Below are positions 4,805-63,229 of a DNA stretch of 64,000 bases, in pieces (positions within the stretch are counted from its first letter, which is position 1; every line of letters starts with the position of its first letter). The notes beneath the pieces are model-generated. The model made no database searches, was not told the DNA's origin, and saw nothing but the letters and a program-made list of their open reading frames with translations. Made by a program: the position numbers and the translations under genes. Source of the stretch: Ganoderma boninense (lineage: Eukaryota > Basidiomycota > Agaricomycetes > Polyporales > Polyporaceae); contig CM035304.1 in the NCBI GenBank assembly GCA_002900995.3, forward strand, positions 5,162,134-5,226,133, in the 5' to 3' direction.

Positions 4805-6845
4805 ATGCTTTCTAGGGCATGGATCAACGTCTGCTCTCTGCTCTTCCCTTGGGATCTTGCCTCATCCCACCGTTCCCAGTCAAGGAATTCAAAGCCCGAT
4901 GGCCCGGGGTCCCCTCCCTGCAAACGTCCCAAACACGTAGCGTCATCGGAGCTCGAGAATGTTCCCCTTCTGTCACCGTGAGTTTGTCTCATATCATCCG
5001 GTCTACGTCTGGGATTGACTGCAGTGCCCAGACTCGAAGCCTTGAACGTAGATGTGTTCCGTCTCATCGCAGATGAGCTGCACCTCCAAGGAGATTTCCT
5101 CCACAATCTATCACTTTGCTCTCGCAAGCTTCGCCACCTTTCCTTCCCTATATTGTTCTCCAGGTGCAGGTGGATGGTCGTCTCCCGCCAGCTATCCATC
5201 GTACCCACGTACGACTATTTCCCGTCCGCAGAGCCGCCCGAAGTCATCCGTCCGTTCGTTCGGTGCGTCCCACTTTTTCGATCGTCGAGCGTTTCTCAAA
5301 CTTATGTATGCCAGACATCTACATCTTTACTGGGCATTTCGATACGACCAAGACGCGGAGCAGTTCGACATCCTCTTAGGTTGCTTCCCTTCAATCATCT
5401 CGGTCACCTTCGCAGGGACTGAGGGTCTGGTTCCGTGGCGTGTGATCAAATCCTGTCTCGTCAACCCCCGCATCACATCCTTGTCGTTCGACGCCAGAGC
5501 AACGGACCGTTTCAACTCGCCTCCTTACCTGTCGGACGACGTAACCACTAGTTCACTCGAGCGGTTCTCGCTCACGACTACTATGTGGCGAGAGCATGCA
5601 AATGACACGGCCGACACTCGCAGACGCATTCTCAACTGGAGGAATATAAAGGACGTTTTCCGCGTTGAGCGGGAGTGCTTAACTGCTATTGTGCTCACCA
5701 TGAACACTACCGCTATATCCCTGACAATACCTATAGAGACGGCACCTTTGCGCGAGATGTCCAAGATCCCCTGGCCGAAGCTCAGGCACCTCTATCTCCA
5801 TGGACGCTTGCTGGCTAGCTCACAGTCAGCTGCACTGCGCGCCCTTCTCCCCTCTCTGCATTCACTCGAGACCCTCTCAGTGCAAGCTGCGAGGTCGAAG
5901 CAGCTCGCACGGCCCCGACTACTAGCGCCATTCCTTTCATCGAGCGGACATCGCGTATCATCTTCTTCCCATGCTCCTTCCGCGCCTTCAGGATCATCCG
6001 CTACTATCATCGTCCAGCGTCCGTCCACCCCTCCCGCTATTCTGCCCAGATTGCGCTCCCTCACCATTGCATACGCGAACCCGGAAGACGCGATCTTTTC
6101 CATCAACGCCGAGCTCACACACTTCTCTCTCCGCGACTGTCCGCGATTCTACCACTTCCTCGCATACGGGGGATTGCGAATCGGTCTGGAGTGGGGCTGG
6201 AATATGCCGATCCTCAACCCGGCTCAATGCCTGTCGATGATGAGGCGGATGCCATTGTCCAGATTGACCAGGCTGGAGCTCGTGTACATGGTGGCTGCGA
6301 CGCAGTCGGGCAACGATGCGGACTTGCTCACGTACATAGGCGAAGCGTTCCCCGTGCTCATGCACCTAGAGATCCATCGTTATCGGTACCAGAGAACGGA
6401 GCGGGTCGACCACGTTCGTCTTCCATGTTTCCGTCGTGGGCTGCGCCACAATACTTATCCTCACATATAGGTCCATATCGCTCGAATGTTGGTCGCGGTG
6501 AAGTCATTGCGCACCCTTCGCTTGAACCTGGACTTCCATGACGACCACCAGGCGTACTGTGGCAACGCCAAGAAGCGGCAACGGTGGCATGACATGCTCA
6601 TAGAACAGCGTGGGCCAGAGATCCTGGCCATCATGGAAGAGTGTCCGCTTCTGGAGCATGTGGCGCTGCTCTACCATGGGGCGCCGTCAGCGACGTGGGT
6701 TGAGTTCCGGACGTCTCGCTGCCCGGGACCGCGCGTTGTGCTGGAGTATGATCGTGAGCATGTGTACGTTCGCACTTCGTGCTGCTGTTGACTCTGTTCG
6801 GACATTGACGGTCCGCACTTTCAGGGATTCGGAGACCTTGTTTAG
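4805..6845 (+). CDS. F-box/LRR-like protein, family copy A (C-terminus shortened)
   Basis: Five exons (4805-4977, 5032-5262, 5315-6413, 6471-6761, 6825-6845) keep one frame and give 604 aa. The structure matches the other family members exactly. Exon 1 encodes a variable leader beginning MLSRAW and ending in a KRPKH basic patch. Exon 2 encodes an F-box-like segment (LNVDVFRLIADELHLQGDF...LRHLSFPILFSRCRWMV), which in this family type would bind Skp1 in an SCF ubiquitin ligase. Exon 3 is a leucine-rich body (LRHLYLHGRLLASSQ, LHSLETLSV, LRSLTIAYANPEDAIFSINAELTHFSLRDC). In exon 5 the usual GFGDLDEEEMGPGV reads GFGDLV then TAG, so about 30 C-terminal residues are lost to a GAG-to-TAG type change. 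It may still be functional. The substrate is unknown. Confidence 0.8.
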
Positions 6846-7282
6846 GAAGGATTGGGTCTGCGTGTGACAGCCGCATTGTTGACTTCGACTCGGAGCGCTG
6901 CAGCCGCGACTGTCGGTGGACAGCGCTGATGCAGGTGGGTATCGGCTGGGGGTGGAACTGTGTCAGTCGGCGGATATGTTGTGGGAGCATATGGATTGTG
7001 CCAAAGCTGAATGAGGCGTCGAGAACCAGAGGAACATCAACATCATGCATCGGGTCCGGCCGCTGGCTCACCCTGCCGCTGAAAATCAATCAGAGGGCAG
7101 TTGATTGATGATTACAATGCATTGGGGTGTTCAACCGGAGCCTGACTCTGCCTGAGGTTGAGTGTTGGCAACTCTACGAGGGTTCGTAGGCATGTTGAGC
7201 CTTGGGTCACCTTGAAACCTACGGTGTTGACATGTACCATTGACATAACTTCAAAATTGCCGTGTTTCCTTCGGGGTTGCAA
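6846..7282. repeat. F-box family intergenic spacer, left part (copy A)
   Basis: This is the 3' flank of F-box copy A. Its end (catgtttcct/cgtgtttcct type sequence) matches the spacer downstream of copy B near 26560-26600, showing that the duplicated unit includes noncoding DNA. It is interrupted at 7283 by the CACTA-like insertion and resumes at 8345. Confidence 0.55.
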
Positions 7283-8347: not shown

Positions 8348-8846
8348 GTGGTAGAATCGATGGCGCATCGACCACTCGCGGTTGGGAATTTTTTCTTCCT
8401 TCTAAGACAGTCCAACACTTGCGGGACCTCTAAACTCTTGTCTTTGGAGCGTTCCCAGGTAATGCCAGTGTTCTGTCCCGGGTCCGTGTCTTCGAGTCCG
8501 GCGGTGCCAATGCCAACTCACTGGCAAGAATTCCTTCTTGGTTAACATATAATTAGACTAGCTGATCATCTATTTATGATTCACACTATTAGGATCTTGC
8601 TATCGCCCTCATGCAGACAAACTCATAATCACGGTAACCGCCTGCTGGTTCATTCCGTTGGCTGACTAAGCAAGGTGGCCTAAGCTAAGCCCTTAGCACC
8701 TCTTGTTCTTCAATCGCCGATGAAACTCTGAGATACCAAACCAGTAACAACGAGTCTTGTGCCCGCCTAAGAAGAACTTGCGCTTGACCTCGACCTTCTG
8801 CCGCTCTTGTCTTTATCCATGTCGACTCACTGCTTGAATCTGCACC
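8348..8846. other. Spacer and 5' flank of F-box copy B, no gene seen
   Basis: The first part (tggcgcatcgacc, 8360) is the right part of the F-box spacer interrupted by the CACTA-like element. The remainder leads into the ATG of copy B at 8847. No other gene or repeat boundary is seen. Confidence 0.45.
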
Positions 8847-9064
8847 ATGTTCTCTAAGGCATGGACTACCATCCACGCTCTCGCCTTCCCCTCGGATCTC
8901 GGTGCCTCATGTCCCCACTTCCAGTCCATGGCTCTGACCCATTGCGAACTTGAACAGTCTCCACCGCATAAACGTCGAAAGCATGCACCACCTGTCGAAC
9001 ATTCAACATTGCCGGAGTTTGATCATTTGCCTCGCTTGTCACCATCAGTTCTCCCTCCATGCGC

Positions 9065-10177
9065 TGATATACTGACGGACGGTCTGGACTCCGCTAGGAT
9101 ACTGCGGGAAATGAGGCAGAGATGGAGTGGCACTGTGGATGGGGCAAGGACCGACGAGTCTGTCACTGAGGGTGCGAGGAAGGTGGTCGGCTCTCGCGAG
9201 TAGACCGAGGGACGTGCGGACGATCCGAGGGATGGTGGATGATGGAGACAACGACGTACGGACGTCGGGCGGGAAGGGGACGAGGATGCTGGAGACGAAT
9301 GGGAAAGAAATGGAAAGGGAACAACACACCCGTGAGGCTTTCGCTACCTCCGGGATGAGTGCGCTATCGGAAGTAGGTGCGACAATGGGTGAACGCGGGA
9401 TCGGGGAGGTCGGAGACTTCGTAAGCATCGAGAGTCCACGCGCGGACTGCCCGAGTGGTCTCGTAAACGCTACGCTTGCGCGGGTGGGGAGTAAAAGTGA
9501 GTGAGCAGATGGTCGCTGTCGAGTCGATGTCGGCCAGGGGAGGAATTCGCTATCCTTCCGTCGAGTCCGATCATAAGCGTGGGGTGCCAAAAGCTGCATA
9601 ATCATGGGGAGCGATGGGTATATATACAGGAACGGGACGGGACCCGTGTGGTCCGACCTACTACTACTACTACTCGAAAACGTCCTCCTCCGCTGGAATC
9701 ACGAGCCCTTCCCGGAGTCCCGCAGGCTCCGTAAGCCTCGACTTGTGCGCCACCGGTCTATGAGCTAGCTGGGCCTCGTGCGGCGGATCGACGCGTATAG
9801 GTCGCGGAGGCCGCGTCTTGAGCGCTTGAGTGCGACGCATCGCGACACGGTCACGTGTACGCGTCAGGCGCTCGAGGACGAGTCGACGAAAACTAGGGGA
9901 CAAGTCTTGATCTTGAATGGGGGTCCGTCCCCCTCGATCCTCCTGTCGCCGGTGGTGGAGACTACGCGCGAGGGATGCACTCGGAAACTTCGGGGAGTGC
10001 GGAGTCAGTGGGACCACCAGGAAACTAAAGGGGGCTTCGGATGGTGGCTTCGGGGGCATGCGTTCGGAACGAGGGGGGGGGCGCGGGTCGAGTGCCTTCT
10101 GAGGGAGCGGACTCCTCGGTGCGAAAAATGGGGGTATTTCGGGGGTTTCGGAGCATGGAGAGGCACCGGGCCTATCA
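9065..10177 (-). repeat. TE1 3' LTR
   Basis: A 1113-bp direct copy of 23208-24321. It contains a TATA-like run (tatatata near 9619-9626, readable on either strand) and a CTA trinucleotide run near 9659-9674. On its right it abuts the polypurine tract at 10178, which identifies it as the 3' LTR of a leftward element. Long open frames on both strands inside it are not convincing genes. Confidence 0.9.
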
Positions 10178-10215
10178 CCTCCCCCTCACTGAAATCTGAA
10201 CCGTCCTCGGTTCAG
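10178..10215 (-). promoter_or_regulatory. TE1 terminal polypurine tract with adjacent hairpin (module 2)
   Basis: On the element strand the order is a perfect 8-bp stem, 4-nt loop hairpin (10196-10215; + strand CTGAACCGTCCTCGGTTCAG), then ATTTCAGTGAGGGGGAGG, directly abutting the LTR terminus TGATAGG. The purine run is the expected primer for plus-strand DNA synthesis. The hairpin occupies the same position in module 1 (16558-16595), with a different stem sequence. Confidence 0.75.
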
Positions 10216-10323
10216 CGAGTTCCGCGCCAGGGTGACTTCGTCGCGCCATTCTTCAGTTCCGGGGTGAATTACCGCCTTCGAGATATAAGGCGAGATGCGG
10301 CGAGGTGGAAGCTGCATCGAAAC

Positions 10324-10999
10324 ATGGCTATACTCGGCATTTCCTCCATTCTCGACGAGATCTTCACTCTGTCCGGCAGTGTTCGCCCTGCTCTCGATCA
10401 TCGCATCGAAAGTCTTGTCACTTCGTTCGAGGCAATAACCCCCGAGAACGATTTCGACGAGACTAGCCTCCGCCGCAAGGTGCGCACCTTGGCATACGAC
10501 CTTGTAAGTTCGTTCCTGTTCTCGGGCGGAGGCATGCTGACCACCGGCTGCGTAGGACCTCCGTGCCCTTCTGAGCGTTCATGGTCGCGCCGCTCCCGAA
10601 GTCGTCAAATGGGTCCGGCGCGTGTTCGAAGCCGCGTCGCTCCTTGACGATTACGGGGGCTACGTTTCCCTTTTCGAAGAGGAGTACCATCGTCTCCGCG
10701 ACGAACAGCTGTCGTTTGCCAACGCTCGCCGCCTTGCACGGGCGGAAGAGGCCCACTTCCTTGGCAACGCGCTCTGCGCCGCGGTCTATCGTTCTGGCCT
10801 GGGCGACCTGACAGTGACTGCCTGGATCGACGCTGCGATGGACTGGACGTCCGAAGAACTGCGCGGCGCGTGTTTCGAGAGATCGAGCATGTCCGCCTTC
10901 GCTGTCCATCGGTTGGCTAGCTCGGTCATGGCCAACGCCGCTACCGAATTAGATGAAATGGGGGGCGATGACAACTCTGGGGCCGACATGGGCTTGTGA
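10324..10999 (+). CDS. TE1 cargo gene P1, unknown protein, 2 exons, antisense to element
   Basis: Exons 10324-10503 and 10556-10999 join in frame across a 52-nt GT..AG intron, giving 207 aa. The protein starts MAILGISSILDEIFTLSGSV and looks mostly helical (RALLSVHGRAAPEVVKWVRR, YHRLRDEQLSFANARRLARA), ending in an acidic tail (DEMGGDDNSGADMGL). A TATA-like gatataagg lies near 10281, about 40 nt upstream of the ATG and just after the hairpin-polypurine module. It has no recognised family. A spliced, intact gene on the strand opposite to gag and pol implies its own promoter and transcript. Confidence 0.65.
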
Positions 11000-11340
11000 T
11001 TGAAGGCTAGACCCGAGGTAGCGAGGGAGAGGGACGGAGGATGTCGCGAAAGGTTGTCGTCGATCGTTCGGACGTCTCAGAGGATTGTTAGGGGTGGAGG
11101 GGAGTGCGGAGGTGCGCGAAGGTTCAGGACTAGGGCAGATTTGCGACGCGCCGTCTGTAGACTAGTTTCCGGAAGAAATTGTTCCAACGCGCGACTGCTT
11201 GTTATGGAGGTGACATTTGAGGGTCGTCGGAACCGCCTGGCTTGAGCATGAGTGCGCACCCCGGGAAGTCCGACCGTTCTTCTGGTATAAAGGGGGGCCA
11301 AGTGCGGTCACTCTCATTCTTCCGTAACCCGACGCCTCCC

Positions 11341-11977
11341 ATGGACGACGACTTGCAGATGTTTGAAGAAATTCCTGAGCTGTCGACCGAAGAGGCCGAG
11401 AGCGAATACGAAAGCCTCACCCTCAGCAGCTTCGACCTTCTCGAACACTCGTGACTCGATCAACCGCATGATTGGCGACCTTTCGATGGACATAGGCTGC
11501 GGCAACGAGCGCGCGTCCATCCTCCAAGAGAAACTTTTCACCGTGGTGCAGGAGTTGGTGCGTCCCTTTCTCATTCGAAGGCCGTTTTCTTGCTGATGCT
11601 TCCTCGACCGCTAGACCTTCCTGGCCCGGTTCGCCAGTTGCAACAAATCCTTTGAGACCATGTTCCAACGCCTGCGGGGTACCGTTGCGCTTGCCCCGGT
11701 CGGATACGGGCTTGCACCACTTTTCGTGACCTGGACGTCCGGCTTGCAAATGACTACTCGCCTCGCGCTTCTTCGCAGCTGCGTTGAGGACGCAAAGAAG
11801 AGCCGCGACGACATGGACCACCTCGACCTCCTCTTCCGCCACCTCGGCGAACCTCCCATCCTCTGGTTACACCGCATCGTAGCCCTCCGCATCCATATTC
11901 ATCGTCGCTACACGCACGCGAGCCTCGAATTGGACACGTACCTCCGCCACCTCGCGGATGGCCTGACGAACGAGTAG
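11341..11977 (+). CDS. TE1 cargo gene P2, unknown protein, probable frameshift near 11430
   Basis: A start at 11341 (MDDDLQMFEEIPELSTEEAESEYESL) leads into a frame that stops at TGA near 11455, while the next good coding frame (FSNTRDSINRMIGDLSMDIG) is shifted by one position. Either a 1-nt indel lies around 11420-11440 or translation starts at a later Met. The intron 11558-11614 is GT..AG and joins VVQEL to TFLARFASCNKSF in frame. The gene ends at TAG 11977 (LRHLADGLTNE). A TATA-like ggtataaagg lies near 11284, about 55 nt upstream of the start. The protein is helical with an acidic N-terminus. No family recognised. Confidence 0.5.
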
Positions 11978-12306
11978 GGGAGATTCTTTTTTTGGAGTGG
12001 GGCAGGGGGAGTGCGCGGGACCGTCGGAAAAAGGCGTAGGTCGCGGGGGACTGCGTACGGGGTTGGGGAGACGTGTCGAATCGCGAGATTCGGTCGGGTT
12101 TACTTGCCAGGTTCCGCCTTGTTGGAAATCCAGTAGTCGCGGAATCGACAGTTTGTACCCCGTAGTACATTGACCATGAGGTTGCGAGGTGCGCGATACG
12201 CCAGGGGTGCGTTCGGGAGTGGTCGAGAAATGGACCCAGAGTGGACATAAGAAACCACCGGCTGCGCACAGACTAGACGGCACATTCACTTCCTTTTCTC
12301 CCCGCT

Positions 12307-12999
12307 ATGCGCCTTCCTACTACCAATCCAGAGCGCGTGGAGCTTCTTGAAGAGGTACTGCCTGCGCTCCATCGTACCATCAATGCCGACCTTGCGCGCG
12401 CAAGCTTCGTCTCCGAGGATCCTGCTCGCGTGCTCTTCCCGAGTTCACAGGAGGTCGCGCAAATCGCGCGGGCTATCGTAAGTCGTGGTTCCTTCCCTTT
12501 GGTAGGCTATGTGTTGAGCTTCGTTCGCCCACAGGCCCTTCACGGGTGGCTGTCCGTATCCGGTTTTCATAACGCGCCATGGTGGAACGCGCTCCTTCGC
12601 CTTTGCGAACGCGCTCCTACCGACCATCCCATTCGCACGCAAGTCCATGGCGCTCTCATCGACATCCAGTACCGGCTTATTGAACGCGAGCTCCTCGAGC
12701 ACGCGCACGATACCGCCCGCGCGTACTCGACCGATCTTGGTTTGGTGGACGCCCTTGACCGGCTCGGTTGGCGGTTCAGTAGTCTTGCAAGCCGCGCCAG
12801 GGTTCTAGTTGCTCATTCGGAAGGCGAATGGGTGGGTGCGGTTCAGGCGCTCACTTCATTCCGTTATGGGCGCTCAGTCGCGCACATTGCGAATCCGGAA
12901 GTCCTTTGGATGGAAGGGGAAGGCTCTTGGGACGCGTCCGGCTGGGGCTACGATCCGGACCGGCTCTTCACGAACTTCGCTACCGCAGCACTTCGATGA
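12307..12999 (+). CDS. TE1 cargo gene P3, unknown protein, 2 exons
   Basis: Exons 12307-12477 and 12535-12999 join in frame across a 57-nt intron (gtaagt...cacag), giving 211 aa. The intron is itself open, so unspliced translation is also possible but would insert 19 residues between ARAI and ALHGWL. The protein starts MRLPTTNPERVELLEEVLPA and contains helical, aromatic-rich stretches (HNAPWWNALLRLCERAP, LGLVDALDRLGWRFSSLASR), ending RLFTNFATAALR. No known domain is recognised. It lies between P2 and P4 in the same orientation. Confidence 0.6.
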   Translation: MRLPTTNPERVELLEEVLPALHRTINADLARASFVSEDPARVLFPSSQEVAQIARAIVSRGSFPLVGYVLSFVRPQALHGWLSVSGFHNAPWWNALLRLCERAPTDHPIRTQVHGALIDIQYRLIERELLEHAHDTARAYSTDLGLVDALDRLGWRFSSLASRARVLVAHSEGEWVGAVQALTSFRYGRSVAHIANPEVLWMEGEGSWDASGWGYDPDRLFTNFATAALR

Positions 13000-13075
13000 G
13001 GGGACCACGGGAAGTGTACTTAGTCTTTCGCGATCGTAATCGAGCGTCTTGCCTCATCCCTCTCTTCTCTCCGTC

Positions 13076-14028
13076 ATGGCCTCCCCTCTCGCTCCTCTCC
13101 TTACTCACGTTCAGGCCTCCGACTTCGAGCTCGATGCCGAGAACGCGCCCGAGATCACCTCCGGTTTCCTTTCCACCATCCGCCGCCTTCCCGACCCCTC
13201 TCAACTTCCCGATGCCGATTTCGAGGGCGTGTTCGAGTTGTATACGGCCGCTGTGGCGGCGCGTCGCATTGCCCGTGAGGTGGCGGAGGAGTTCCTTGCT
13301 GAGTACTCGATGGTCTCGCGATGTAAGGCTGAGCATGGCTCGATCCATGGCTGATCCAGAGCTGAATCCGCGGATCGAGGGCAATTTTAAGGCTTGATCC
13401 AGAGCTGTGCGGATCATGATCCACGGCTCCAGATCAGTGCGGATCCGGATCAAACAGATCCGGATCGCGGATGATCCGCAGGTTTTTTTGCAAAGATTAT
13501 GTGTTTCTGACATATATCTTGTTGTCTAACTACTTTTCTTGCCTAAATACTGCTAAACATGCAGAATTCTAATGCATGAAGGTGTTCAAAGGCTCTAGTT
13601 TACAACTTTGTCAATCCGCGGATCACCTAGATTTTCCCTATTGCCTCGATCCAGAGCTGCAGCGATCTGGAGCTGCAATGAGCTGGATCCGCGGATACAG
13701 CTCATTGCGGATACAGCTCCGGATTTTGCGGATCGATCTGCAAAGTGAGCTGGATCTGTGCTCAGCCTTATCGCGATGTGCTAAAGCTGACTTTATTGCA
13801 CACACGTGTGGGAAGTATGCGAAGGTGGTCCAGCTGGCGGAGGTGCGAGTAGGTGAGTTGAAGTCGCAGCCCCCCGCGGCCGAAGGCGACGCGCGCGCGG
13901 ACCAGAAGCTCGCCCTAGCCGGGGCCGAGAGGGATTTGCTCGACGCGTCCAGTGAACTCGCCAGTCTGAAGGCGAAGGCTGCGCTCGCCGACGCGGATCG
14001 TACGCCCTTTCTTCTCTCTCTCGTGTGA
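13076..14028 (+). CDS. TE1 cargo gene P4, unknown protein, interrupted by a hAT MITE
   Basis: The frame from 13076 (MASPLAPLLTHVQASDFELD) reads to the 8-bp target duplication TCGCGATG at 13316-13323, where a 447-bp MITE is inserted. Dropping the MITE and one duplication continues the same frame at 13779 (YSMVSRC followed by AKADFIAHTCGKY). The two parts total 498 nt, an exact multiple of three, or 165 aa, ending at TGA 14028. The C-terminal half is an Ala/Leu/Lys-rich probable coiled coil (LALAGAERDLLDASSELASLK). As it stands the frame stops inside the MITE at 13354. A gt near 13999 and an ag near 14055 would allow in-frame splicing into P5, so P4 and P5 could be one gene. Confidence 0.6.
13324..13770. 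mobile_element. hAT-type MITE, 447 bp, in cargo gene P4
   Basis: The ends are TAAGGCTGAGC and its inverse GCTCAGCCTTA, with a perfect 8-bp duplication TCGCGATG on both sides (13316-13323, 13771-13778). An 8-bp duplication is standard for hAT elements, and the TIR start matches the MITE at 36859-37543. The interior has many ATCCGGATC / GGATCCGCGGAT motifs in both orientations near the ends and an AT-rich centre. No ORF of note. Confidence 0.85.
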
Positions 14029-14165
14029 CAGCGCGCTAACGTACCGCTCGGACAGGGGCCGCTGCTTGTGCAGACAACTCCTACCATCCCCGTCTCCTTC
14101 TCCTGCTCTCAGACGCACACAAGGTAAGCAGACAGCAGATTCCCTCGACGGACCCTCCGCCTCGA

Positions 14166-16170
14166 TTGATGATTCGCTTGCCTGGGAAGCCTCCCGCCAA
14201 ATCGGAGCCCACCAAGCCTGACGCGTCGGAGAAGACCCCCCGGCGTACTCGTTCTGCCGCTCCAAAGTCCGCGTCTCCTGCCGTCGCTCGAAAGCCTACT
14301 GCCCGGATGTCCACGAGCGGCCCGAAACCAAAACCTCGTCCTTCCAAGAGTCACGGAGGGCCCGACGACGAGTACGACGAGCTCGACTCTTCAGACGATG
14401 ATGAGGAAGGTGCCGACGATGCCGACGACGTGAGCCCTTCTGTTCGTCGCAAAGGCAAGGGAAAGGGCTCCTCCGCCCATTACGAATCACTCGTCGACTC
14501 CCCAGAGCTCGCTTCGAAGCGGGACGCTTTCGAAAACCAGGCCTTGTTCTTGGCCTGGAAAGACGATGCCGAGGTTCGTGTCTTTCGCCTTCTTTGCGTC
14601 TTCTGAATTTCCGCAAAGTCTGACCCCCTTTTCCAGTGCGACATGTGCGTCAAGAACGGCGAGCCTTGCAAGCCTAGCTTGGACAAGGGACGCGTGCTCT
14701 GCGACCACTGCCGGGGCAAGCACGACAAGTGCACCCACTGGGGGCGAAACTGCAAGGGGGAGGTCAAAGGAGGCCCCCACCGCAATACTCCCGTCGCCAT
14801 CTTCAACGGCCTCGGGTACTCGTTCTCGTCCGCGCTCTCGCAAATCCAGCGCGCTTGGGCCGAAGCGGTCGTTCACTCGATCGAAGACTGTCCTGAGGCC
14901 AACGAGCTCGTCGAGGTCGACAACGAGGGCCTATTGCGCTGTGTTCGGCGCGCCCGGACTGTGACCCTCAAGGAAGGATCGAGTAAGGCCAACTCCGTTT
15001 TGAGGACGTACTCGCCCACTTCACGCGTTCCCACGGAGTACGTGTTCGACCGGTCCACGCTGCCCCAGTACAACCCTCGTCTCCTCCCGGCCTACGTCGA
15101 CCTCGACGAGGCACGCCTGCTTACCGCCACAGCCGCTCCAGTGGACGAACCCGCGGCCAGAGTTGCAGTGGTTGCTGAGGCGCCGTCGACGCCGAGCTCG
15201 CCTGTTCCTCGTCGGTCTCGCCACGGCCACCCTCCCGGCATTCGCGAGCTTCCAGAGAGTTCAGCGAAACCCTCGCCCATCGTCATCAAGATCAAAAAGG
15301 TCGCACCCTCCTCGAAACGTCCTCACGAGGAGTCTAGTCCGGTGCCCTCGCTCGCCCCGAGGAAGAAGCGCACCTGCGTCGTCGAGTCCGAGGAGGAGTC
15401 CGCCGACGATATCACCGCAATTCCGGAGGCCGCTCCTGAAGAGCCCGAAGGGAAGACTTCCGGCCGTCTTCGTCGCCTGACCCGTACTCGTCCCGCGGAT
15501 CGCGACTCACCGGTGAGCACATTCTGTCGCTTGTTCGTAGCCACCGCTCACGCCACCTGCCAGGCTTTCCTTGGTCACACTCCCGCCCCCGCCACCATGG
15601 ATCCTTCCGAATTGGCGGTCGAGGAAGCTGTCGCGCCGCCCGAGGACGAGCTCCCCCAGCTATCCGATGGTGGTGTCCCGGAGGCCGATCCCATCGTCGA
15701 GGGCTTCGAGGGTCCTGCTTCCCCGTCCATCGCGGGCGCTCAGTTGCCCGAGCCTGCCACTCCTGCGGATCCCTTGTCTGTTGCTCCTCCTGGCAGCGTG
15801 ACGGCGACTACCCTGTCGCCCAACTTCGTCTTCCCTCCTCTTCGCTTGCGAGTGCGCGACCTTCGCGAGCTCGACATCCACGTCCAAGAGATTCGTGCGT
15901 CTTGGGCCGGCTTGGGCCGGGGCTGTCTCTCGCGAGTTCCTCAGCCAGTCCCAGCAGAGGGAGTGGGCTCGTCGCGAGGAGGAGCTGACTGGGGAGCCCT
16001 TCGGCTACTACTCGTCTGCGGACCTCCCTCGTCTCGACTTGGAGTTCGAGCGCACCATTTTCCGGGGCCTAGCCGCCAACTCTCTCGAGGAGATCAATTC
16101 GAGGTATCCTCCTGATGAGGGGGACGTGCGCTCTGGTCTCGGAGGTCGGTCTCCTACTGCTTCCGAGTAG
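14166..16170 (+). pseudogene. TE1 cargo gene P5, Zn(II)2Cys6 cluster protein, frame broken by 10-bp duplication
   Basis: Exons 14166-14573, 14637-15512 and 15564-16170 join in frame (introns 63 and 51 nt). The N-terminal part is basic and Pro/Ser-rich with an acidic run (DEYDELDSSDDDEEGADD), then a basic KGKGK patch. Exon 2 opens with a cysteine motif of spacing C-X2-C-X6-C-X10-C-X2-C-X6-C (CDMCVKNGEPC...CDHCRGKHDKC), the fungal Zn(II)2Cys6 pattern, which in that family binds DNA. Next come Pro/Ser/Glu-rich linkers with a KIKK patch and KKRTC. At 15901-15920 a 10-bp unit cttgggccgg is tandemly duplicated and shifts the frame. Removing one unit restores EIRASWAGAVSREFLSQ and a further coding stretch to TAG 16170, for about 626 aa. 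Confidence 0.75.
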
Positions 16171-16557
16171 GGTAGCTGATGGACCCTTCGTCGGTTAGGG
16201 CACGGCTTGGCGTTGGCGTGATTCCCGGGGTCGTTTTGTACTGTCAAACGCTTCTTCGCATGTTTTTCGTTCTGGTTCCCTCGCGTCGTCATCGTCTTCT
16301 TCCTCCTTTGTCCACAGACGGACTCGTATCTTGGCATCCCGCGTCGCTCGCTCTCCTCCGATCCTTGCGCTTCGTGAAAGGTAACGTGTCGAAAGGTCTG
16401 TTTGTTTTTCTGTTCGTACGTATTCTTGGAAATAAAAAAAATAGCTGTGTGCTGGAATTGGTGTTTGCGTGCCTTGGAACTGAATGGTGCACACAACTGC
16501 ACATGATGCGAAGAAAAACAGAAGGCGATTGAATTCATAGTGGTATCCTGAATACCC
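16171..16557. other. Region between cargo gene P5 and polypurine module 1
   Basis: Probable 3' untranslated region of P5 (aataaaa near 16430). I see no further gene. It ends next to the polypurine module at 16558. On the element strand the sequence after that module is not LTR-like. Confidence 0.4.
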
Positions 16558-16595
16558 CCTCCCCCTCACTGAAATCGCGACTGTCCCCAGTCGTG
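16558..16595 (-). promoter_or_regulatory. TE1 internal polypurine tract with adjacent hairpin (module 1)
   Basis: It lies 27 nt after the integrase stop on the element strand. A hairpin (16576-16595, + strand CGCGACTGTCCCCAGTCGTG, 8-bp stem with one G-T pair, 4-nt loop) is followed by ATTTCAGTGAGGGGGAGG, the same 18 nt as in module 2. This is where a 3' LTR would be expected to begin; instead the antisense cargo follows. Confidence 0.7.
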
Positions 16596-16622
16596 GAGAC
16601 GCTCAGCGGGGTGGTGGGTGGG

Positions 16623-18028
16623 CTAGGGGGAATTGACGTCGTATCTGTCGACTTCTTCAAAGTCGTCGGCTCCTTCGCCCTTGTCTTCGGAAGCTTCCAG
16701 TTCCCGGATTCGGAGGGAATCGGCGTCCAGCCATTCGCGCGGGACAGCGATGGGTTCCTTGTGCGCAAAATAAGGGATGACTCTGAACGCTGCAGTCGGG
16801 CGGTCGAACACCATGCCGTCCAACTCCGCTAGTATGTATGCTCCGCCGCGATTGCGGGATACAACGGTGTATGGTCCCAGGTAGCGTGGACGCATTTTGC
16901 GATTGAGACTCTTCTCGATTGCTGTGTTGCGCAAGAGTACGAGGACGCCTGGTTGATGGTCGAAGTCCTTGATCGTTGTTCTGTGTTTGTCTTTGAACTC
17001 TCGGGCCTCCTTGACTCAGGTCTCGTATATCTTGGAGCGCAATTGCGCGACGTCTTCTGCTCGCTTCTGGAGGGCGATCGCACGTTGCGCAATTAATTCA
17101 GCTGTAGCGAGCAGGGATTCGGGAGGTGGTACTAGGTACGTGGCTTCGACAAAGTCGAGGGGCAGTACCGGATGACTGCTGGTAATTGCGAAGTATGGGG
17201 AACAACCGAATCGCCTTCTTCGGGTGGCACGTTCCGACCAAAGGACCGTATGCACAAAGGCGTGCCAGCGCGTTCCGTCCCCTCCTAATGCCTTGAAGAG
17301 GGCATCGCGGACCGGAAAATGTGGCCGCTCGACTATCCCGTTTGCCCACGAGTTATAGCCTGAGACTCGGATGTGGTGTATGTGATACTTTTGGGCGAGG
17401 TAGTCGCACGCCTTCACCCACGGAGCACCATTGTTGGTAACCACTTCGGACAACGCTCCCCAACGGCTCAAAACGTCTTGGAAGAGCCATTCTCCGATGG
17501 CTTTCGCGGTCTCCGTAGTCAACGTGCGACCTTCCGGCCAAGAGGTCGTTGCGCACCGGGCGTGCATGAAATACTTGTATTGTCCTGGCATAGCCATGGA
17601 GTCGGCATGAATACGCATCATTGGGGATAATGGGATTGGGACCGTTGGAGGAATTAGGACATGCGTAGTCTTCCTCGTCTGACAAACATGGCAAGTTTTC
17701 ACAAACCAGTGCACATCCGATTTTATGTCCGGCCACCAGAAGCGTTCGCAAGCGAAAGACGTGGTCGCGAAAATTCCGCGATGTCCGAGTCTATCGTGAA
17801 GTTCCACTAGGACCTCGGGCCTTCGACCGGAGTCGACAACCAGTTTCCGAATTCCTTCATGGTGTCTTTTCCACAAAATGCCTCGAGCGTCGAGTAGGAA
17901 TTGACTAGCGAACTTGTAGAATCCCTTCCATTGCTTGTCCGACATGCCCGACAGGCGCTTGGGGCTATCCAGGAAGTCTCGTACTTGAGGAATGAGGGAG
18001 TCCAGCCTCTTTGCTCGTTCGGACCTAC
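16623..18028 (-). pseudogene. TE1 integrase region of pol (truncated, degraded)
   Basis: This is the C-terminal part of a Ty3/gypsy pol of the kind common in agaricomycetes. It contains an HHCC-type zinc region (HDRLGHRG...CHVCQTRK), the catalytic core (IHADSM; then VTNNGAPW; then NGIVERPHF) and the C-terminal RPRYLGPYTVVSRNRGGAYI segment. The second catalytic Asp expected in TDNGAP is Asn here (codon at 17433-17435, GAC to AAC). The frame is also cut by TGA at 17016-17018 (after SKIYET), which looks like CGA to TGA. The upstream protease, RT and RNase H parts are absent, replaced by the palindrome. The protein would normally insert the cDNA into the genome; this copy cannot. Confidence 0.9.
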
Positions 18029-20775
18029 AGCTGCTGTTGTGGTATTGATACATCATTTTACGGTTATCTCCCAGGAGCGTTTTACATCATATTACGGTTA
18101 AATGCATGATGTATCATAAGCCCCCGGGGCTTATGCCGGATTCTACCCAATTAGGCAAGGCCTCCTCCGGGGCCTCCAGGGAGAGCCCCCATGCTTATCT
18201 AAGCCCTCCCGGGCCTGCTGTGGCTGTACCCTTTTGCTACTCCCATCAATCCTTGCCTCCCGGGCCTGCTGTGGCTGTACCCTTCTGTTCCTGCCATCAA
18301 TTCTGGCCCCCGGGGCCTACTGTGGCTGTGTCCCCTTGCTTCTCCCATCAATACTGCCTTCCGGGATGCCTCCTCCCATCAAATATCAACCTCCCGGCTT
18401 CCCTGGCCCAATTAGGCAAGTGCCCAGTGCCTGGGAGGTGGGGGACCTTGTTCCCCTTGCTGTTAGGCCATTCCTGGGCCGTTTCCCTTCATTGTAGGTG
18501 CGTTCTGTTCGCATTTTCAAGGCGAACAAAATGTATATACTCAGTTACTACATAGTGGCCCCTACCCAGACCCATAGTGCCCCCTTAGGATCGACCTAGG
18601 GGACACTGTTTGGTGAATATCTCTTCCGTTTCTTGGCCGTTTTGGGCGCGTGAGGGCTCATTGGATTCGCATTTTTAATACGCACCTAACGAGCCCTCAT
18701 GCGTCCAAATCCGTCCAGCGGTCGTCCCGGAGCAGATACCTTCTCCTCCTGGGGAGCAGGTATCTGTATCTCAGCAACCCCTGGACCGTTTGCCTTGCTG
18801 TTTGCACTCACTTGTATGTCTGTTGTACTGCATTTCATGCAATGTATTCACTTGTACATTGATAGCCAGCCCATCATGCAGGATGCCCATCAGTATGCAG
18901 CCTCTCCTACTTCGACGGCCCATATCTCCACAACGCATGGGCCGTTTTTTGTGCCCGTGGTACGCCTGGAAAGCCCTTGCTCATAGCTTTCTAAGGAGCC
19001 CCTGAACGTCCCGAACGGACCACTGGTCGTCCCGGGAGGCTGACCCTCTCCTCCTACCTCCATCTTATACTCATCCATCTATATCTCAGGCAGTTTTCCC
19101 ACCGTTTCCCCTCATCTTTTTTTGCATCATAGATCTGTATTTACCTGCTACCTGAATCCATGACCATATTTGCTATCAGGCCAGTGGATCTATTTGGGCT
19201 CCCTTATCAGTATCCTCACAGTATACACCCTATGCCCCCCTTGGCCCACCATGGATAGGCGATGTAATAGGTTGACTAAATAGAGCTAAATGAGGGCTAT
19301 CCAACGCAACAAGAACCATGCAAAACGGTCAAGTATTGGCCTAGTTATGATGTTTTCAACTCCAGTAGACCCACTGTATAACAGTAAGACACTCCGGGCA
19401 AGTGTCTTAACCCGGAAGGCAGGGTCTTAAACCAGCTAACAGGAACTGTTCAAGCTATAAGTTGGCTTCCTCTCAACCGTTTTGCATGGTTCTTGTTGCG
19501 TTGGATAGCCCTCATTTAGCTCTATTTATTCGACCTATTACATGTCCTATCCATAGTGGGCCAAGGGGGGCATAGGGTGTATACTGTGAGGATACTGATA
19601 AGGGAGCCCAAATAGATCCACTGGCCTGATAGCAAATATGGTCATGGATTCAGGTAGCAGGTAAATACAGATCTATGATGCAAAAAAGATGAGGGGAAAC
19701 GGTGGGAAACTGCCTGAGATATAGATGGATGAGTATAAGATGGAGGTAGGAGGAGAGGGTCAGCCTCCCGGGACGACCAGTGGTCCGTTCGGGACGTTCA
19801 GGGGCTCCTTAGAAAGCTATGAGCAAGGGCTTTCCAGGCGTACCACGGGCACAAAAAACGGCCCATGCGTTGTGGAGATATGGGCCGTCGAAGTAGGAGA
19901 GGCTGCATACTGATGGGCATCCTGCATGATGGGCTGGCTATCAATGTACAAGTGAATACATTGCATGAAATGCAGTACAACAGACATACAAGTGAGTGCA
20001 AACAGCAAGGCAAACGGTCCAGGGGTTGCTGAGATACAGATACCTGCTCCCCAGGAGGAGAAGGTATCTGCTCCGGGACGACCGCTGGACGGATTTGGAC
20101 GCATGAGGGCTCGTTAGGTGCGTATTAAAAATGCGAATCCAATGAGCCCTCACGCGCCCAAAACGGCCAAGAAACGGAAGAGATATTCACCAAACAGTGT
20201 CCCCTAGGTCGATCCTAAGGGGGCACTATGGGTCTGGGTAGGGGCCACTATGTAGTAACTGAGTATATACATTTTGTTCGCCTTGAAAATGCGAACAGAA
20301 CGCACCTACAATGAAGGGAAACGGCCCAGGAATGGCCTAACAGCAAGGGGAACAAGGTCCCCCACCTCCCAGGCACTGGGCACTTGCCTAATTGGGCCAG
20401 GGAAGCCGGGAGGTTGATATTTGATGGGAGGAGGCATCCCGGAAGGCAGGATTGATGGGAGAAGCAAGGGGACACAGCCACAGTAGGCCCCGGGGGCCAG
20501 AATTGATGGCAGGAACAGAAGGGTACAGCCACAGCAGGCCCGGGAGGCAAGGATTGATGGGAGTAGCAAAAGGGTACAGCCACAGCAGGCCCGGGAGGGC
20601 TTAGATAAGCATGGGGGCTCTTCCTGGAGGCCCCGGAGGAGGCTCTGCCTAATTGGGTAGAACCCGGCATAAGCCCCGGGGGCTTATGATACATCATGCA
20701 TTTAACCATAATATGATGTAAAACGCTCCTGGGTTATTACCGTAATATGATGTATCATTACCACAACATATGGTG
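18029..20775. mobile_element. Palindromic fold-back element, copy 1, 2747 bp
   Basis: Two arms of about 1.3 kb (roughly 18035-19328 and 19477-20768) are near-perfect reverse complements around a spacer of about 150 bp. The outermost bases differ: AGCTGC at one end, and CACCATA on the reverse strand at the other. Copy 2 (30126-32872) has the same length and the same two end types in the opposite orientation, which fixes the boundaries. Each arm has about three 52-bp subrepeats (CCTCCCGGGCCTGCTGTGGC type). No direct duplication flanks this copy (ggacctac left, ggtgatga right), and the pol segment that should lie here is missing, so insertion was accompanied or followed by deletion. Short mirrored ORFs are by-products of the symmetry. 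Confidence 0.85.
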
Positions 20776-22512
20776 GGTGATGAGTTCGCCGAGCTCACAA
20801 GAGACCTGCGTTTTGTATACCGCTTCCTTCAGGTTGTTTACCGCGTTCGGGCTACCATAAGTAACTTCGTTCCGGTAGGCAGGCGTGTTTTGGACGCCCG
20901 CTACGCCCCGCATTGGTTCTGCTGGCTTCGCGTGCAACGGAGAGGGGTCCGTCGCGTCCTTAGCTTTCGCGTACGGATGGAGCGGAGTCGCGCTCTCGGA
21001 AGCAGCTACATTCGGCTGGGGTGGCCTCTGTGTTACCGGTCGCTGAATGTCCGTTGATTGCGAACCGTGCCGCGGCCCCGAAGGTCCTGGAGTGGGTGGG
21101 CGCGGGGTCGTCCTGTCCGCCGTTCCAACGTTCGCCGGTCTTGCGGGTGGGGCAGGCTTTGGTCCCGGTGGAACCCCGCGTTTCCCAGTGAAAGGTCTGG
21201 GGCGCTGGATTATTTCAACACCGTCGAAGCGCAAATTTGGCTTTTTCTTTGCGGCAACCTGAAGCTCGTTGATCTGGCACTGGAGAGCCTCGAGGGCGTC
21301 GGCGTCACTCTTGGACAAAGGCGGTTGGTGCGAATCATCCATCAACTCGTAATCTTGTTCGTCTGAGGTGGACAACTCCAACAGCATATGGTCTGCGCCT
21401 GATTGTTCCGCGCGCTTCGCATCGAGGTAAAAGTTCACCTTCTCCCGCAAAGTTCCTTGCCCGAGGTGGTACGGAATCGGATTACCATCGTACATGACTA
21501 ACATCCCGTTCTCGTGCTTGATTTTTCGGGCATTGATGTCTTCTGTAGCTTCCGGGCACCTCCGGGTTTCGCAACCGTCTGCTCCGCAATAGTAGCATCC
21601 TTTTCGCGGAGTCGGAGGTCTCGGAGGTAGATCGTGTCTAGGTCCTCCCCCGTTCGGTGGCGGAGTACGCATAGCCGCACGTTCCGGAGGAGACGGGTTC
21701 GACGCCGGTTTGGGCAACATAGCCGCTAGGGTACTGACCAGCTGTTTCGAGATCAGGTTCACAAATGCACTTGCGTCTTCTTGCTTGATCCGGGGAGCCA
21801 CACTCGGCGCGCGCGTCGCTGTGGGTGCTTGTAGTCCTCCTGTTCCTCCAGTACTCCCTATCGGGCCGGTCGTCTCCCAGATGTCGTCGAAGTCATCGTT
21901 GCGGTGTTGCAGTACGTAGGTCGCCGCCTTGTGGAACTGTTCGAACGTGTAGGGCGTGTTTGCCGTACGGTTTGGGACGTCATTTTCTAGACGAGCCTTG
22001 ACGGCTTCCCTGTGCGAAGTACCGAGGGCTCGAGCGAGTGCCTTATTCGCCTCGATATTGTTGATCCGGTTCTTGCCCAGGAGGTACTTTACTACCAGCC
22101 GGAGTTCGACGTAGAACCTCGAGTATTCGTTTAGGTCCTTGACGGCGCCGGCTGCGACACGTTTGTCGACCAAAGACTGCAGATCTTCAACAGTCCATTC
22201 GGGGGTCGTCGATACTCCCGGATAGAGCTCGAAGACCGCCTTCTTGAAATCCACGTAAGTCTTGGTCGGCTCTGAGAATTCTTCTAAGGAGCTCCACGAC
22301 GCTTCGATTGCCCAGGAGAGATACCTGACTGCAAAACTCTTCCTGTCGGTTTGCGCTGTCGCGTCGTCCGGGACCGAATGCTTGCGGAAGAGGGCCTCCA
22401 AGTCGGCGAAGTATCGGCTCAAAGACCGGGGGTCTGCTTCGTCGAATACCGGACACGTCCGATCTCCTCGTACAGGCATCGCCTGCGGTCCAGCGTTCGC
22501 GCCTTGGCTCAT
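20776..22512 (-). pseudogene. TE1 gag (capsid and nucleocapsid), 3' end truncated by palindrome
   Basis: Likely start at 22512 (MSQGANAGPQAMPVRGD); the open frame extends upstream to 22866. The capsid-like region includes RSLSRYFADLEALFRKH, SFAVRYLSWAIEASWSSL and TPYTFEQFHKAATYVLQHR. A zinc-knuckle-like motif CYYCGADGCETRRC follows (CX2CX4CX4C, with Cys where most retroelements have His). Then comes a Pro-rich tail ending VNNLKEAVYKTQVSCELGEL, which runs into the palindrome and stops at 20758. Gag would form the intracellular particle that holds the RNA and pol. Confidence 0.8.
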
Positions 22513-22648
22513 GATTGGATGGGGGTTGATGAATGGTTGAGGTAGAAGCTGGTTCGATGATTGTGTGACGACCGGGGGCGCAATCACCACCGGTGGCAAG
22601 GTATGAGTAGTTCGTGGGGTCGAATGTATCGGAGCTCTTGACGCCGAG

Positions 22649-23077
22649 TCAGGACACTCGATAAAGTCTTCTTGGTCTTGTATTGGATGTGAGTTCCGAG
22701 CCAAACGTGTCGTCTGCTCCGAAGTCGGTAGGTATGTGTTCTGTAATTGCGGGAACGTCTGAGAAATGGTCTCGCGCGTCGTCGAACTCTTCGATCGAAT
22801 TTCCGGATAGGTCTTCATTGAATTGTTGATCGTCGTCGGTAACCCAGGTAAAGGTGTGAAAGTCAAAACGTAAGGTGTCGCTTGGACTAGGTGTATTGCC
22901 GGACTCTGGCGTCGACCACGGCGAAATGGTTGGGGTAGGTTCCGACGAACCTTCCGACGTCGGAGGAGTCAGCGCAAAGGTTGCGGTTCGAGGTGAGTAC
23001 GGCACCGGTTGCGTCGGTGTCGGAAGTGTGTGATGATTCAGAGGATCAGGAGGATTCGAAGGTTGTCTCCTTTGCAA
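22649..23077 (-). CDS. TE1 leader ORF upstream of gag
   Basis: A 142-aa frame (MQRRQPSNPPDPLNHHTLPT to RPRRLYRVS) begins 131 nt after the 5' LTR. It is Pro/Ser/Thr-rich, then has a more ordered acidic part (DFHTFTWVTDDDQQFNEDLS, SIEEFDDARDHFSDVPA). It overlaps the 5' extension of the gag frame by about 220 nt, so either a frameshift or an intron may link it to gag, making it the N-terminal domain of a longer Gag. No damage is seen. Function unknown. Confidence 0.5.
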   Translation of the reverse strand: MQRRQPSNPPDPLNHHTLPTPTQPVPYSPRTATFALTPPTSEGSSEPTPTISPWSTPESGNTPSPSDTLRFDFHTFTWVTDDDQQFNEDLSGNSIEEFDDARDHFSDVPAITEHIPTDFGADDTFGSELTSNTRPRRLYRVS

Positions 23078-23185
23078 AACTCCCGAGAGTTCCGCGAGAT
23101 GTCTGAGGTCTGAAAGGAACTCTTGATCTTCCGCAAGCGGTAAATTTGCTGTCTGTCGGTTAATCGCGAAGGAATCCGACTGGGC

Positions 23186-23207: not shown

Positions 23208-24321
23208 TGATATACTGATGGACGGTCTGGACTCCGCTAGGATACTGCGGGAAATGAGGCAGAGATGGAGTGGCACTGTGGATGGGGCAAGGACCGACGA
23301 GTCTGTCACTGAGGGTGCGAGGAAGGTGGTCGGCTCTCGCGAGTAGACCGAGGGACGTGCGGACGATCCGAGGGATGGTGGATGATGGAGACAACGACGT
23401 ACGGACGTCGGGCGGGAAGGGGACGAGGATGCTGGAGACGAATGGGAAAGAAATGGAAAGGGAACAACACACCCGTGAGGCTTTCGCTACCTCCGGGATG
23501 AGTGCGCTATCGGAAGTAGGTGCGACAATGGGTGAACGCGGGATCGGGGAGGTCGGAGACTTCGTAAGCATCGAGAGTCCACGCGCGGACTGCCCGAGTG
23601 GTCTCGTAAACGCTACGCTTGCGCGGGTGGGGAGTAAAAGTGAGTGAGCAGATGGTCGCTGTCGAGTCGATGTCGGCCAGGGGAGGAATTCGCTATCCTT
23701 CCGTCGAGTCCGATCATAAGCGTGGGGTGCCAAAAGCTGCATAATCATGGGGAGCGATGGGTATATATACAGGAACGGGACGGGACCCGTGTGGTCCGAC
23801 CTACTACTACTACTACTCGAAAACGTCCTCCTCCGCTGGAATCACGAGCCCTTCCCGGAGTCCCGCAGGCTCCGTAAGCCTCGACTTGTGCGCCACCGGT
23901 CTATGAGCTAGCTGGGCCTCGTGCGGCGGATCGACGCGTATAGGTCGCGGAGGCCGCGTCTTGAGCGCTTGAGTGCGACGCATCGCGACACGGTCACGTG
24001 TACGCGTCAGGCGCTCGAGGACGAGTCGACGAAAACTAGGGGACAAGTCTTGATCTTGAATGGGGGTCCGTCCCCCTCGATCCTCCTGTCGCCGGTGGTG
24101 GAGACTACGCGCGAGGGATGCACTCGGAAACTTCGGGGAGTGCGGAGTCAGCGGGACCACCAGGAAACTAAAGGGGGCTTCGGATGGTGGCTTCGGGGGC
24201 ATGCGTTCGGAACGAGGGGGGGGGGCGCGGGTCGAGTGCCTTCTGAGGGAGCGGACTCCTCGGTGCGAAAAATGGGGGTATTTCGGGGGTTTCGGAGCAT
24301 GGAGAGGCACCGGGCCTATCA
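23208..24321 (-). repeat. TE1 5' LTR
   Basis: A 1114-bp copy of 9065-10177. The GCGC that follows it at 24322-24325 pairs with GCGC before the other LTR (9061-9064) as target duplication. The same TATA-like and CTA-run features are present (near 23761-23817). Confidence 0.9.
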
Positions 24322-26246
24322 GCGCGTCCTTCTATCTATGTTGACCGGCCCATCCAGACTTGAAACCGTGAATATCGATGTGTTCCGTCTCATCGCAGAT
24401 GAGCTGCACCACCAAGGAGGTTTCCTCCACAATCTATCACTTGCGTCTCGCAAGCTCCGCCACCTTTCCTGCCCCATATTGTTCTCCCGGTGCAGGTGGA
24501 TTGTCCGTTCTCGGCAGGAGGACGTGGAGCCCACGTATGATTACTTCCCGTCCCCACAGCCACCTGAAGTAATCCGTCCATTCGTTCGGTGTGTCCTGCT
24601 TTTTCGATGGTCAAGCATTTCTCAAACCGCCGTGTGTCAGGCACCTAAATGTATACAGGCCATTTCGATACGACCAAGACGTGGAGCAGTTCCACATCCT
24701 CCTGGGTTGCTTCCCTTTGATCACCTCGGTCACCTTCGCGGGGACGCAGGGTGTTATTTGGTGGCCTATGATCAGATCCTGTCTCGTCAACCCTGGCATC
24801 ACATCCTTGTCGTTCAACGCCGGAGAACAGACCGATTCACCTTGGCCCCGTACTTGTCGGACGACACAATCACTAGCTCACTCGAGCGGCTTTCATTCAC
24901 GACTACTATGTGGCGGGAACATGCTAATGTCACGTCAAACACTCGCTACTGCTTCCAACCGAGGGACATGAATGAGGTTTATCATTTTGAGCGGGAGTGG
25001 TTGACCGCTATTCTGCTCACCATGAACACTACCGCTATATCCCTTACAATACCTATAGAGACGGCACCTTTGCGCGAGATGTCGACGATCCCCTGGCCGA
25101 AGCTTAGACACCTGTATCTCCATGGACGCTTGCTGGCTAGCTCGCAGTCAGCTGCACTGCGCGCCCTTCTCCCCTCTCTGCATTCACTCGAGACCCTCTC
25201 AGTGCAAGCTGCGAGGTCGAAGCAGCTCGCACGGCCCCGACTACTAGCGCCACTCCCTTCATCGAGCGGACATCGCGTATCATCTTCTTCCCATGCTCCT
25301 TCCGCGCCTTCAGGATCATCCACTACTATCATCATCCAGCGTCCGTCCACCCCTCCCACTATTCTGCCCAGATTGCGCTCTCTCACCATCGCGTACATGA
25401 ACCCTGAAGACGCGATCTTTTCCATCAATGCCGAGCTTACCCACTTGTCTCTCCGGGACTGTCCGCGCTTCTACCACTTCCTCGCATACGGGGGATTGCG
25501 AATCGGTGTGCAGTGGGGCTGGAACATGCCAATCCTCAACCCGGCGCAATGCCTGTCGATGATAAAACAAATGCCATTGTCGAGGTTGACCAGCCTTGAG
25601 CTCGTGTACATGGTGGCCGCGATGCGGTCGGGCAACGATGCGGACTTGCTCACATAGATAGGTAAATCATTTCCTGCGCTGTCGTATTTGGAGATCCATC
25701 GTTATCGGTACCAGAGGACGGAGCGGGTCGACCACGTTCGTCTTCCCTGTTTTGTTTGATGTGTCACGGTGCTCATTGTCATCTGCAGGCACATATTGCC
25801 CGGACGCTGACCGCGGTGAAGTCGTTGTGCACCGTGCGCTTGAACCTGGACTTCCACGACGATCATCAGGCGTACTGCGGCAACCTCGAGAAGAGCAAAC
25901 GATGGCATGACACGCTCATAGAACAGCGTGGGCCAGAGATCCTGGCAATCATGCAGGAGTGTCCGCTCCTAGAGCATGTCGCACTCCTTTATCATGGGTG
26001 GCCGTCAGCGACATGGGTTGAGTTCCGGACGCCTCCCTGCCTGGGACCGCGCATTGTCCTGGAGTATGATGCTGAGCATGTGTACGTTCGCACTTTTGTC
26101 GGCTCTCTGCGCCCATTGACAGCCCTCACTTTCAGGGATTCGGAGACCTTGATGAGAAAGAAATGGGTCGGGGAGTGACGGCTATGTTTTCTGCGACAAG
26201 TCGGAGTCTCGCAGGGGCGACTCTGTGGGCAACACCAATGACGTAA

Positions 26247-63170: not shown

Positions 63171-63229
63171 CGAGTAAGTATCTTGGACCTGACCGTTCGT
63201 GGTTTGTCTGTGAAGGTAATAGAAGGCAA

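Follow-up and report, generated by a model that had tools for sequence, protein, structure and literature searches.

A 64,000-nucleotide stretch of the Ganoderma boninense genome (the window; G000:C1:5162134-5226133) contains TE1, a Ty3/gypsy retrotransposon on the minus strand (9065-24321), in which a block at 10178-16594, between the integrase and the 3' long terminal repeat (LTR), comprises four genes, P1 to P4, on the strand opposite to the integrase. The block is very probably integral to the element, with the anatomy described here, and it likely represents a region of accessory genes that belongs to a lineage of basidiomycete Ty3/gypsy elements. This explanation was derived from copies of the element elsewhere in the genome, from codon changes between copies, and from related loci in other families. 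All genome searches covered 55.6 Mb in 74 contigs.

The antisense block and its genes

The integrase, the block and the LTR DNA each matched two further two-LTR copies, at C3:699459-714504 and C17:114453-129520, which together with the window copy on C1 are termed family A. The antisense block had the same ends in all three copies, and its identity was 97% between the window copy and C3 or C17, and 99.6% between C3 and C17. Flanks of 1.4 kb were without similarity, both between C3 and C17 and between the window and either of them. The target-site duplications also differed, being GCGC in the window copy and GCGT in C17; the duplication of C3 was unreadable because its left LTR lacks its first bases. 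The same block is thus present in three copies amid unlike flanks, and therefore travels with the element, as had been proposed in an earlier sequence-only reading of the window.

Gene models were built on the C3 copy as it stands. In window coordinates, the features of the block are:

10178..10214, minus strand: PPT2 module, a polypurine tract (PPT) abutting the 3' LTR, with a hairpin at 10197-10214
10284..10289, plus strand: TATA-like box TATAAG ahead of P1, 40 nt before the P1 start
10324..10999, plus strand: P1 (exons 10324-10503 and 10556-10999), 207 aa in the C3 copy
11286..11291, plus strand: TATAAA box ahead of P2, 55 nt before the P2 start
11341..11977, plus strand: P2 (exons 11341-11557 and 11615-11977), 190 aa in C3; 7 extra nt at 11447 break the window frame
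12307..12999, plus strand: P3 (exons 12307-12477 and 12535-12999), 211 aa; relatives P0005 and P0007
13076..16170, plus strand: P4 (exons 13076-13999, 14056-14573 and 14637-16170), 836 aa in C3, broken in the window
13316..13770, no strand assigned: 455-bp repeat inside P4 with the 8-bp duplication TCGCGATG; C3 and C17 lack it
16431..16436, plus strand: AATAAA, 261 nt past the P4 stop
16559..16594, minus strand: PPT1 module, a second polypurine tract after the integrase, with a hairpin at 16577-16594

The sequence-only reading had counted five genes, the last two of which proved to be the single 836-codon gene P4 in the C3 copy; the spliceosomal introns and the two TATA-like boxes that it had described were recovered. 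The C3 models contain five introns of 52, 57, 57, 56 and 63 nt, all GT..AG and present in all three copies. P1, P2 and P3 have one phase-0 intron each, after codon 57-70, and P4 has two. This shared intron position, together with an identity of 23-25% in a gappy alignment, is suggestive only of P1 to P3 being mutual paralogues.

The third exon of P4 opens with a six-cysteine cluster with the spacing X2, X6, X10, X2, X6. Zn(II)2Cys6 domains have the spacing CX2CX6CX5-12CX2CX6-8C, with which the clusters of P4 and of the related L008 and L011 exons described below (X2, X6, X8, X2, X6) agree. A coiled coil and charged stretches were also noted in P4 by eye, and of the four genes P4 is the strongest candidate for a regulator that binds DNA or RNA. 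Domain searches found no similarity of P1 to P4 to known transposable element (TE) proteins, and the best Pfam score among the four was that of P1 to DUF5669 (E 0.24, under the cut-off).

Outside this genome, the predicted Ganoderma sinense protein GSI_03697 (987 aa) showed 38% identity over 69% of P4, and in it a P3 relative is followed by the P4 relative in one fused protein, so that the P3-P4 order is kept. One database labels the Ganoderma relative as a transcription factor. Two proteins from ENA contigs, P0004 and P0006, were nearly the same as family A, and P0007 is a P3 relative (73% identity over 71%). No further homologues came from one P4, one P3 and one profile search, the P4 and profile searches scoring the best 7991 and 7992 candidates; the profile search, with alignment A1, returned P0004 alone. 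In the G. boninense genome, matches to P3 exon 2 were limited to the three copies, two weak matches near family B (see below) and one on C4.

Across the 1447 codons of P1 to P4, the C3 and C17 copies differ by 15 silent changes and 3 replacements. When the base and CpG context of each change was preserved, the expected number of replacements was 11.2 or 12.4, depending on the direction of change, and none of 5000 trials gave a number as low. Codon positions 1, 2 and 3 carried 1, 2 and 15 changes, one of the ten changes in P4 was a replacement, and the integrase showed one silent change and no replacement. The signal was weaker against the window copy, where all genes together had 59 replacements (70.4 or 77.6 expected) and P4 had 32 (35.8, P 0.15, or 39.2 expected). 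In a second family, the related exons of L007 and L008 gave a dS of 0.269 and a dN of 0.030; third positions held 58 of their 78 differences, and there were 21 replacements where 55.8 were expected. L008 and L009 were too little diverged to be informative (3 and 3), and values of 0.23-0.24 were obtained for pairs that include the decayed L016. Taken together, P1 to P4 are under purifying selection.

Tract-hairpin modules and related families

The cargo block is flanked by two copies of a module that consists of a polypurine tract and a covarying hairpin. In family A the 18-base tract CTCCCCCTCACTGAAATC occurs both at the 3' LTR and after the integrase. Exact matches to it numbered five in the genome, all within the three two-LTR copies, which is more than chance would give, and a sixth place had one change; with up to two mismatches there were 22 sites, compared with 7 for the reversed pattern. 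The stems of the PPT1 and PPT2 modules differ, and their design is alike.

A search with the integrase protein listed at least 117 matches, 120 of 256 candidates having been scored, and 19 loci around integrase DNA matches were defined (L004-L022, of which L020 and L022 overlap). The PPT1 module was found after the integrase in 15 of these (L004-L018) and was absent in L019-L022; a diverged module was present at L087 (C8:1140k). Among 22 integrase places, both modules were present in the three of family A, and seven of the 19 others had a PPT2-like site, 4.5-11.6 kb downstream of the integrase and on the other strand (L078-L084). In these seven the tract adjoins a CATCA end in the register of the family A end TATCA, and on that register the CATCA ends are inferred to be putative LTR ends.

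The hairpin alignment contained 28 rows taken straight from the loci, 21 of them distinct. Its cells were paired in 91.8% of cases, with both-sided changes in five of the seven pairs and in 39 cells, whereas the controls, slid by one to three columns, reached at best 50% paired, 4 pairs and 6 cells. Three of five hairpin measures lay above all 500 shuffles, although these counts are not probabilities, because the alignment rows are related.

Lentiviruses have a central polypurine tract, which is a second tract inside the genome. The second tract of TE1 is likewise internal, but it differs in lying after the integrase, in having a hairpin, and in that priming from it is putative.

Beyond PPT1, a gene on the opposite strand that ends in a six-cysteine exon was found in several families. 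P4 itself was present in L004-L006, an L008-type exon in L007-L010 and L016 (the last with one stop and one cysteine lost) and in pieces in L012 and L015, and an L011-type exon in L011 and L017. No six-cysteine exon was seen in L013, L014 and L018-L022 within the locus DNA examined. Searched genome-wide, the L008-type exon gave 19 matches in 11 loci, among which were sites lying further out at L013, L014 and L018, and an opposite-strand integrase lay on the right side at all 11. The nearest integrase piece was 0.64-0.66 kb away at eight of these loci and 1.2-3.3 kb away at three. Nine of the integrases were 59-64% identical to that of the window, another was 73% identical over a piece (C34), and the last, at 37%, was decayed (C64). 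The L011-type exon occurred with an opposite-strand integrase at C14:26.7k and, at a distance of 0.74-0.75 kb, on C5, C10 and C22. The likeness of P4 to the L011 type extended beyond the cysteines (FNGxGxSF; tblastn E 6e-8), and, by eye, an intron immediately precedes the first cysteine in P4, L007, L008 and L077.

From these predicted exons, an antisense six-cysteine gene at this place was shown to be common to other families of the lineage. The sequence-only reading had called for homologues antisense and downstream of integrases elsewhere; these were found in this genome for the large gene P4, but P1 to P3 were not found in the other families, P1 and P2 having been sought solely within the whole-block DNA query. 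No relatives were confirmed in viral contigs, which were sought by integrase.

P4 relatives of a further group, family B, were found at C13:1033500-1037500 (L077), C13:615904-618557 and C14:78935-82663, with about 50% identity and frames of 533-721 aa. P3 is decayed in L077. The family B relatives may be orphan, decayed or host-resident.

A form of the element without the block was sought at PPT1 in 15 loci and at C8:1140k and was not found: no LTR directly after the integrase was seen in the 15 loci (about 30 bases past the tract examined), and the neighbour of the C8:1140k tract is no LTR, because the adjoining 120 bases match the genome once. The sequence-only reading had held that such a form, or P-genes at ordinary host locations, would speak against its proposal; the P4 relatives of family B may have a host or an orphan location.

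The host element and the window copy

Along the element the order is 5' LTR, gag-position open reading frame (ORF), palindrome, integrase, polypurine tract, antisense block, second polypurine tract and 3' LTR. The features outside the block are:

9061..9064, no strand assigned: target-site duplication GCGC, left; the same four bases at 24322-24325
9065..10177, minus strand: 3' LTR, ends TGATA...TATCA, 99.7% identity to 23208-24321
16623..18027, minus strand: integrase with H2C2 zinc domain, in-frame stop at 17016; a single open frame in C17
18028..20775, no strand assigned: 2.75-kb palindrome at the expected reverse transcriptase (RT) site
20758..22866, minus strand: gag-position ORF, with a CX2CX4CX4C knuckle-like motif by eye and no Pfam match reaching the cut-off
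23208..24321, minus strand: 5' LTR
24322..24325, no strand assigned: target-site duplication GCGC, right

The two LTRs (1113 and 1114 bp) differ at two sites and one gap over 1114 positions. Their near identity and the GCGC duplication agree with the sequence-only reading, which had also held that the flanks rejoin into an F-box intron. The flanks were indeed contiguous in a paralogue at 62126-62128, but the F-box label was not confirmed, since the one flank ORF tried (5015-5419) had no Pfam match up to E=10.

Assignment to Ty3/gypsy is based on the LTR pair with TG..CA ends and a target-site duplication, the polypurine tract adjoining the 3' LTR, and the order RT-RNase H-integrase with an H2C2 zinc domain. 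RNase H (PF17917) precedes the integrase (PF17921) in one frame of C17, and RT residues were seen by eye ahead of RNase H in that copy, where the frame has stops; no match to the rve core was reported in the domain comparison of the element proteins. Directly after the 5' LTR, TGGAGCCCACCGC was noted by eye at the position of a putative tRNA primer binding site. In 8800-24500, no Rfam family matched at gathering score.

The window copy is degenerate: it lacks RT, with the palindrome in its place, its integrase has a stop, and P2 and P4 are broken. Three lesions are private to it among the three copies, namely the 455-bp repeat (13316) and the 10-nt duplication (15901), which split P4, and the 7 nt at 11447. 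The 455-bp repeat has terminal inverted repeats and 25 further genomic places (L028-L052) plus some weaker ones, and with its 8-bp duplication it is presumably hAT-like. The window block has diverged from the other two copies by 2.7-2.9%, largely through CpG loss, whereas its own LTRs are nearly identical. CpG loss accounts for 89 of the 152 changes that set this copy apart, and 10 run in the opposite direction. Either most of the damage probably preceded the most recent move of this copy, or its LTRs have undergone conversion; under the first possibility the window copy was mobilized in trans.

A second 2.75-kb palindrome, at 30126-32873, is 99% identical to that of TE1, with arms of about 1.3 kb each. 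TE1 itself lies within an array of paralogous genes (4682-7018, 24325-26480 and 54285-64000), mostly 82-87% identical in DNA. The segment 7283-8346, with CACTGTGAAGG / CCTTCACAGTG ends and rich in ACCCGGT, resembles by eye a small DNA transposon.

Comparison with known systems, rival explanations and meaning

In the available parts of two papers (PMC11963269, PMC7264820), the plant elements Retand, Grande and RIRE2 are described as having antisense ORFs between pol and the 3' LTR. Gene23 of Grande is driven by a promoter of its own and its product is nuclear, and TRP28 (PF04195) marks most Retand antisense ORFs. Retand is, as TE1, a Ty3/gypsy element. TRP28 had no match in P1 to P4 at E<=1. 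The plant elements further differ in that neither paper mentions introns and no doubled tract was seen in the available parts, whereas TE1 has four genes, five introns and two tract-hairpin modules. The fungal LTR element Boty of Botrytis cinerea has an antisense gene, brtn, between pol and the 3' LTR (Zhao 2011, cited in PMC7264820 and PMC8365987, both available in part). The sequence-only reading knew of no comparable multi-gene module in fungal LTR elements; a view that these elements lack antisense genes is not supported in the light of Boty. One gene is reported for Boty in those sources, and its likeness to TE1 is one of arrangement. Retroviruses such as HTLV have antisense accessory genes with expression near the 3' LTR, according to the accessible part of PMC7264820; the position is alike, the hosts are unrelated, and the likeness is again by arrangement. 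A literature search by titles and abstract starts, with few subscription papers, found among the matches listed no fungal LTR element described as having either several intron-bearing antisense genes or a tract in duplicate.

If the block is an integral accessory region, P1 to P4 would be driven by their own promoters near the 3' LTR, away from the LTR and toward the integrase. Their introns would be removed only from the antisense messages, and genomic RNA would keep them as plain sequence. Reverse transcription would keep the introns because they lie opposite the genomic RNA, which should carry none of their splice sites; the presence of all introns in the three copies is as expected from this survival, which had been suggested in the sequence-only reading. 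The proteins would act in trans, and the chance that they are accessory regulators of the element is judged to be about even. That the second tract is a second priming site is a somewhat weaker proposal; it may initiate plus-strand DNA where gag-pol meets the extra region, with the long genome copied in two pieces, and it may have been the route by which the extra region was gained.

Several observations weigh against this explanation. The window copy moved recently (LTRs 99.7% identical) despite broken P2 and P4, so a copy may be able to do without the genes in cis. The promoters, and with them the transcription, splicing and translation of the genes, are predictions from DNA. No Pfam model, Zn_clus (PF00172) included, reached the cut-off for P1 to P4 or the related exons, so the predicted binding role of P4 rests on the cysteine spacing, and AlphaFold2 models were poor, with a mean pLDDT of 50.6 for P1 exon 2 (one sequence) and 41.1 for P0006 (two sequences). 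Between C3 and C17, P1 to P3 alone had two replacements among eight changes (P 0.065 or 0.026 by direction), and intergenic changes (4/1293) were, unexplained, below those of third positions (15/1448) and introns (4/285). PPT2 was seen in only seven of 19 relatives, the stem of L084 is damaged, and two hairpin measures were no better than shuffles (both-side-changed pairs 179/500, further pair types 404/500). The L011 type lacks an intron immediately ahead of the cysteines, its frame being open further upstream, and pieces of it at C6:34533-35976, C9:13999-22924 and several at C14:15-34 kb, as well as family B within 10 kb, had no lineage integrase among the matches listed.

Some of these points would suit passengers, that is, host genes captured once by an ancestor and spread without use to the element: P1 to P4 have no known domain, the window copy combines near-identical LTRs with broken genes, and P4 relatives without a nearby integrase exist. 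Such passengers are nevertheless improbable, given that purifying selection is seen both between copies and within a second family, and given the same antisense position in families with integrases mostly 57-66% identical to that of the window. A role of the antisense RNA itself, in which transcripts would base-pair with the genomic RNA and hold down copy number, with proteins of secondary importance, could exploit the double-stranded RNA that the arrangement might yield, as is discussed for plant elements in the available part of PMC7264820; the constraint, however, sits on codon positions 1 and 2, and this role is considered very improbable. The alternative offered by the sequence-only reading, in which a piece of host DNA was later nested in one copy, would fit the lack of similarity to known TE proteins. 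It is rejected for family A, and its probability is negligible, in view of three separate insertions with the same block and of comparable genes at the corresponding position in other families. Recombination between two elements, in which PPT1 would be the former 3' terminus of the first and the stretch reaching to PPT2 would stem from the second, is compatible with an integral accessory region and would account for two modules that share a design though their stems differ. It is unlikely, though less so than the other alternatives: since several families have the arrangement in common, the event would have to be old, and no gene-free element with a single module was found.

Beyond an integral accessory region, a more speculative possibility is a fungal Ty3 clade with a two-part genome, in which sense gag-pol is joined to an intron-bearing antisense set of up to four genes, an exchangeable cassette set off by a duplicated tract-hairpin that would serve as a second plus-strand start; this broader proposal is less likely than not. 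If true, the two-part element would be a retrotransposon counterpart of a complex retrovirus, with accessory genes that are all antisense and spliced. Annotation pipelines may otherwise list such cargo as host genes, and the covarying hairpin beside each polypurine tract would be a structural mark for finding these elements in other fungi. Should the accessory region be confirmed, LTR retrotransposons would be able to hold genes with introns as lasting components under selection when these genes are reversed, and the keeping of accessory genes by such elements would become testable.

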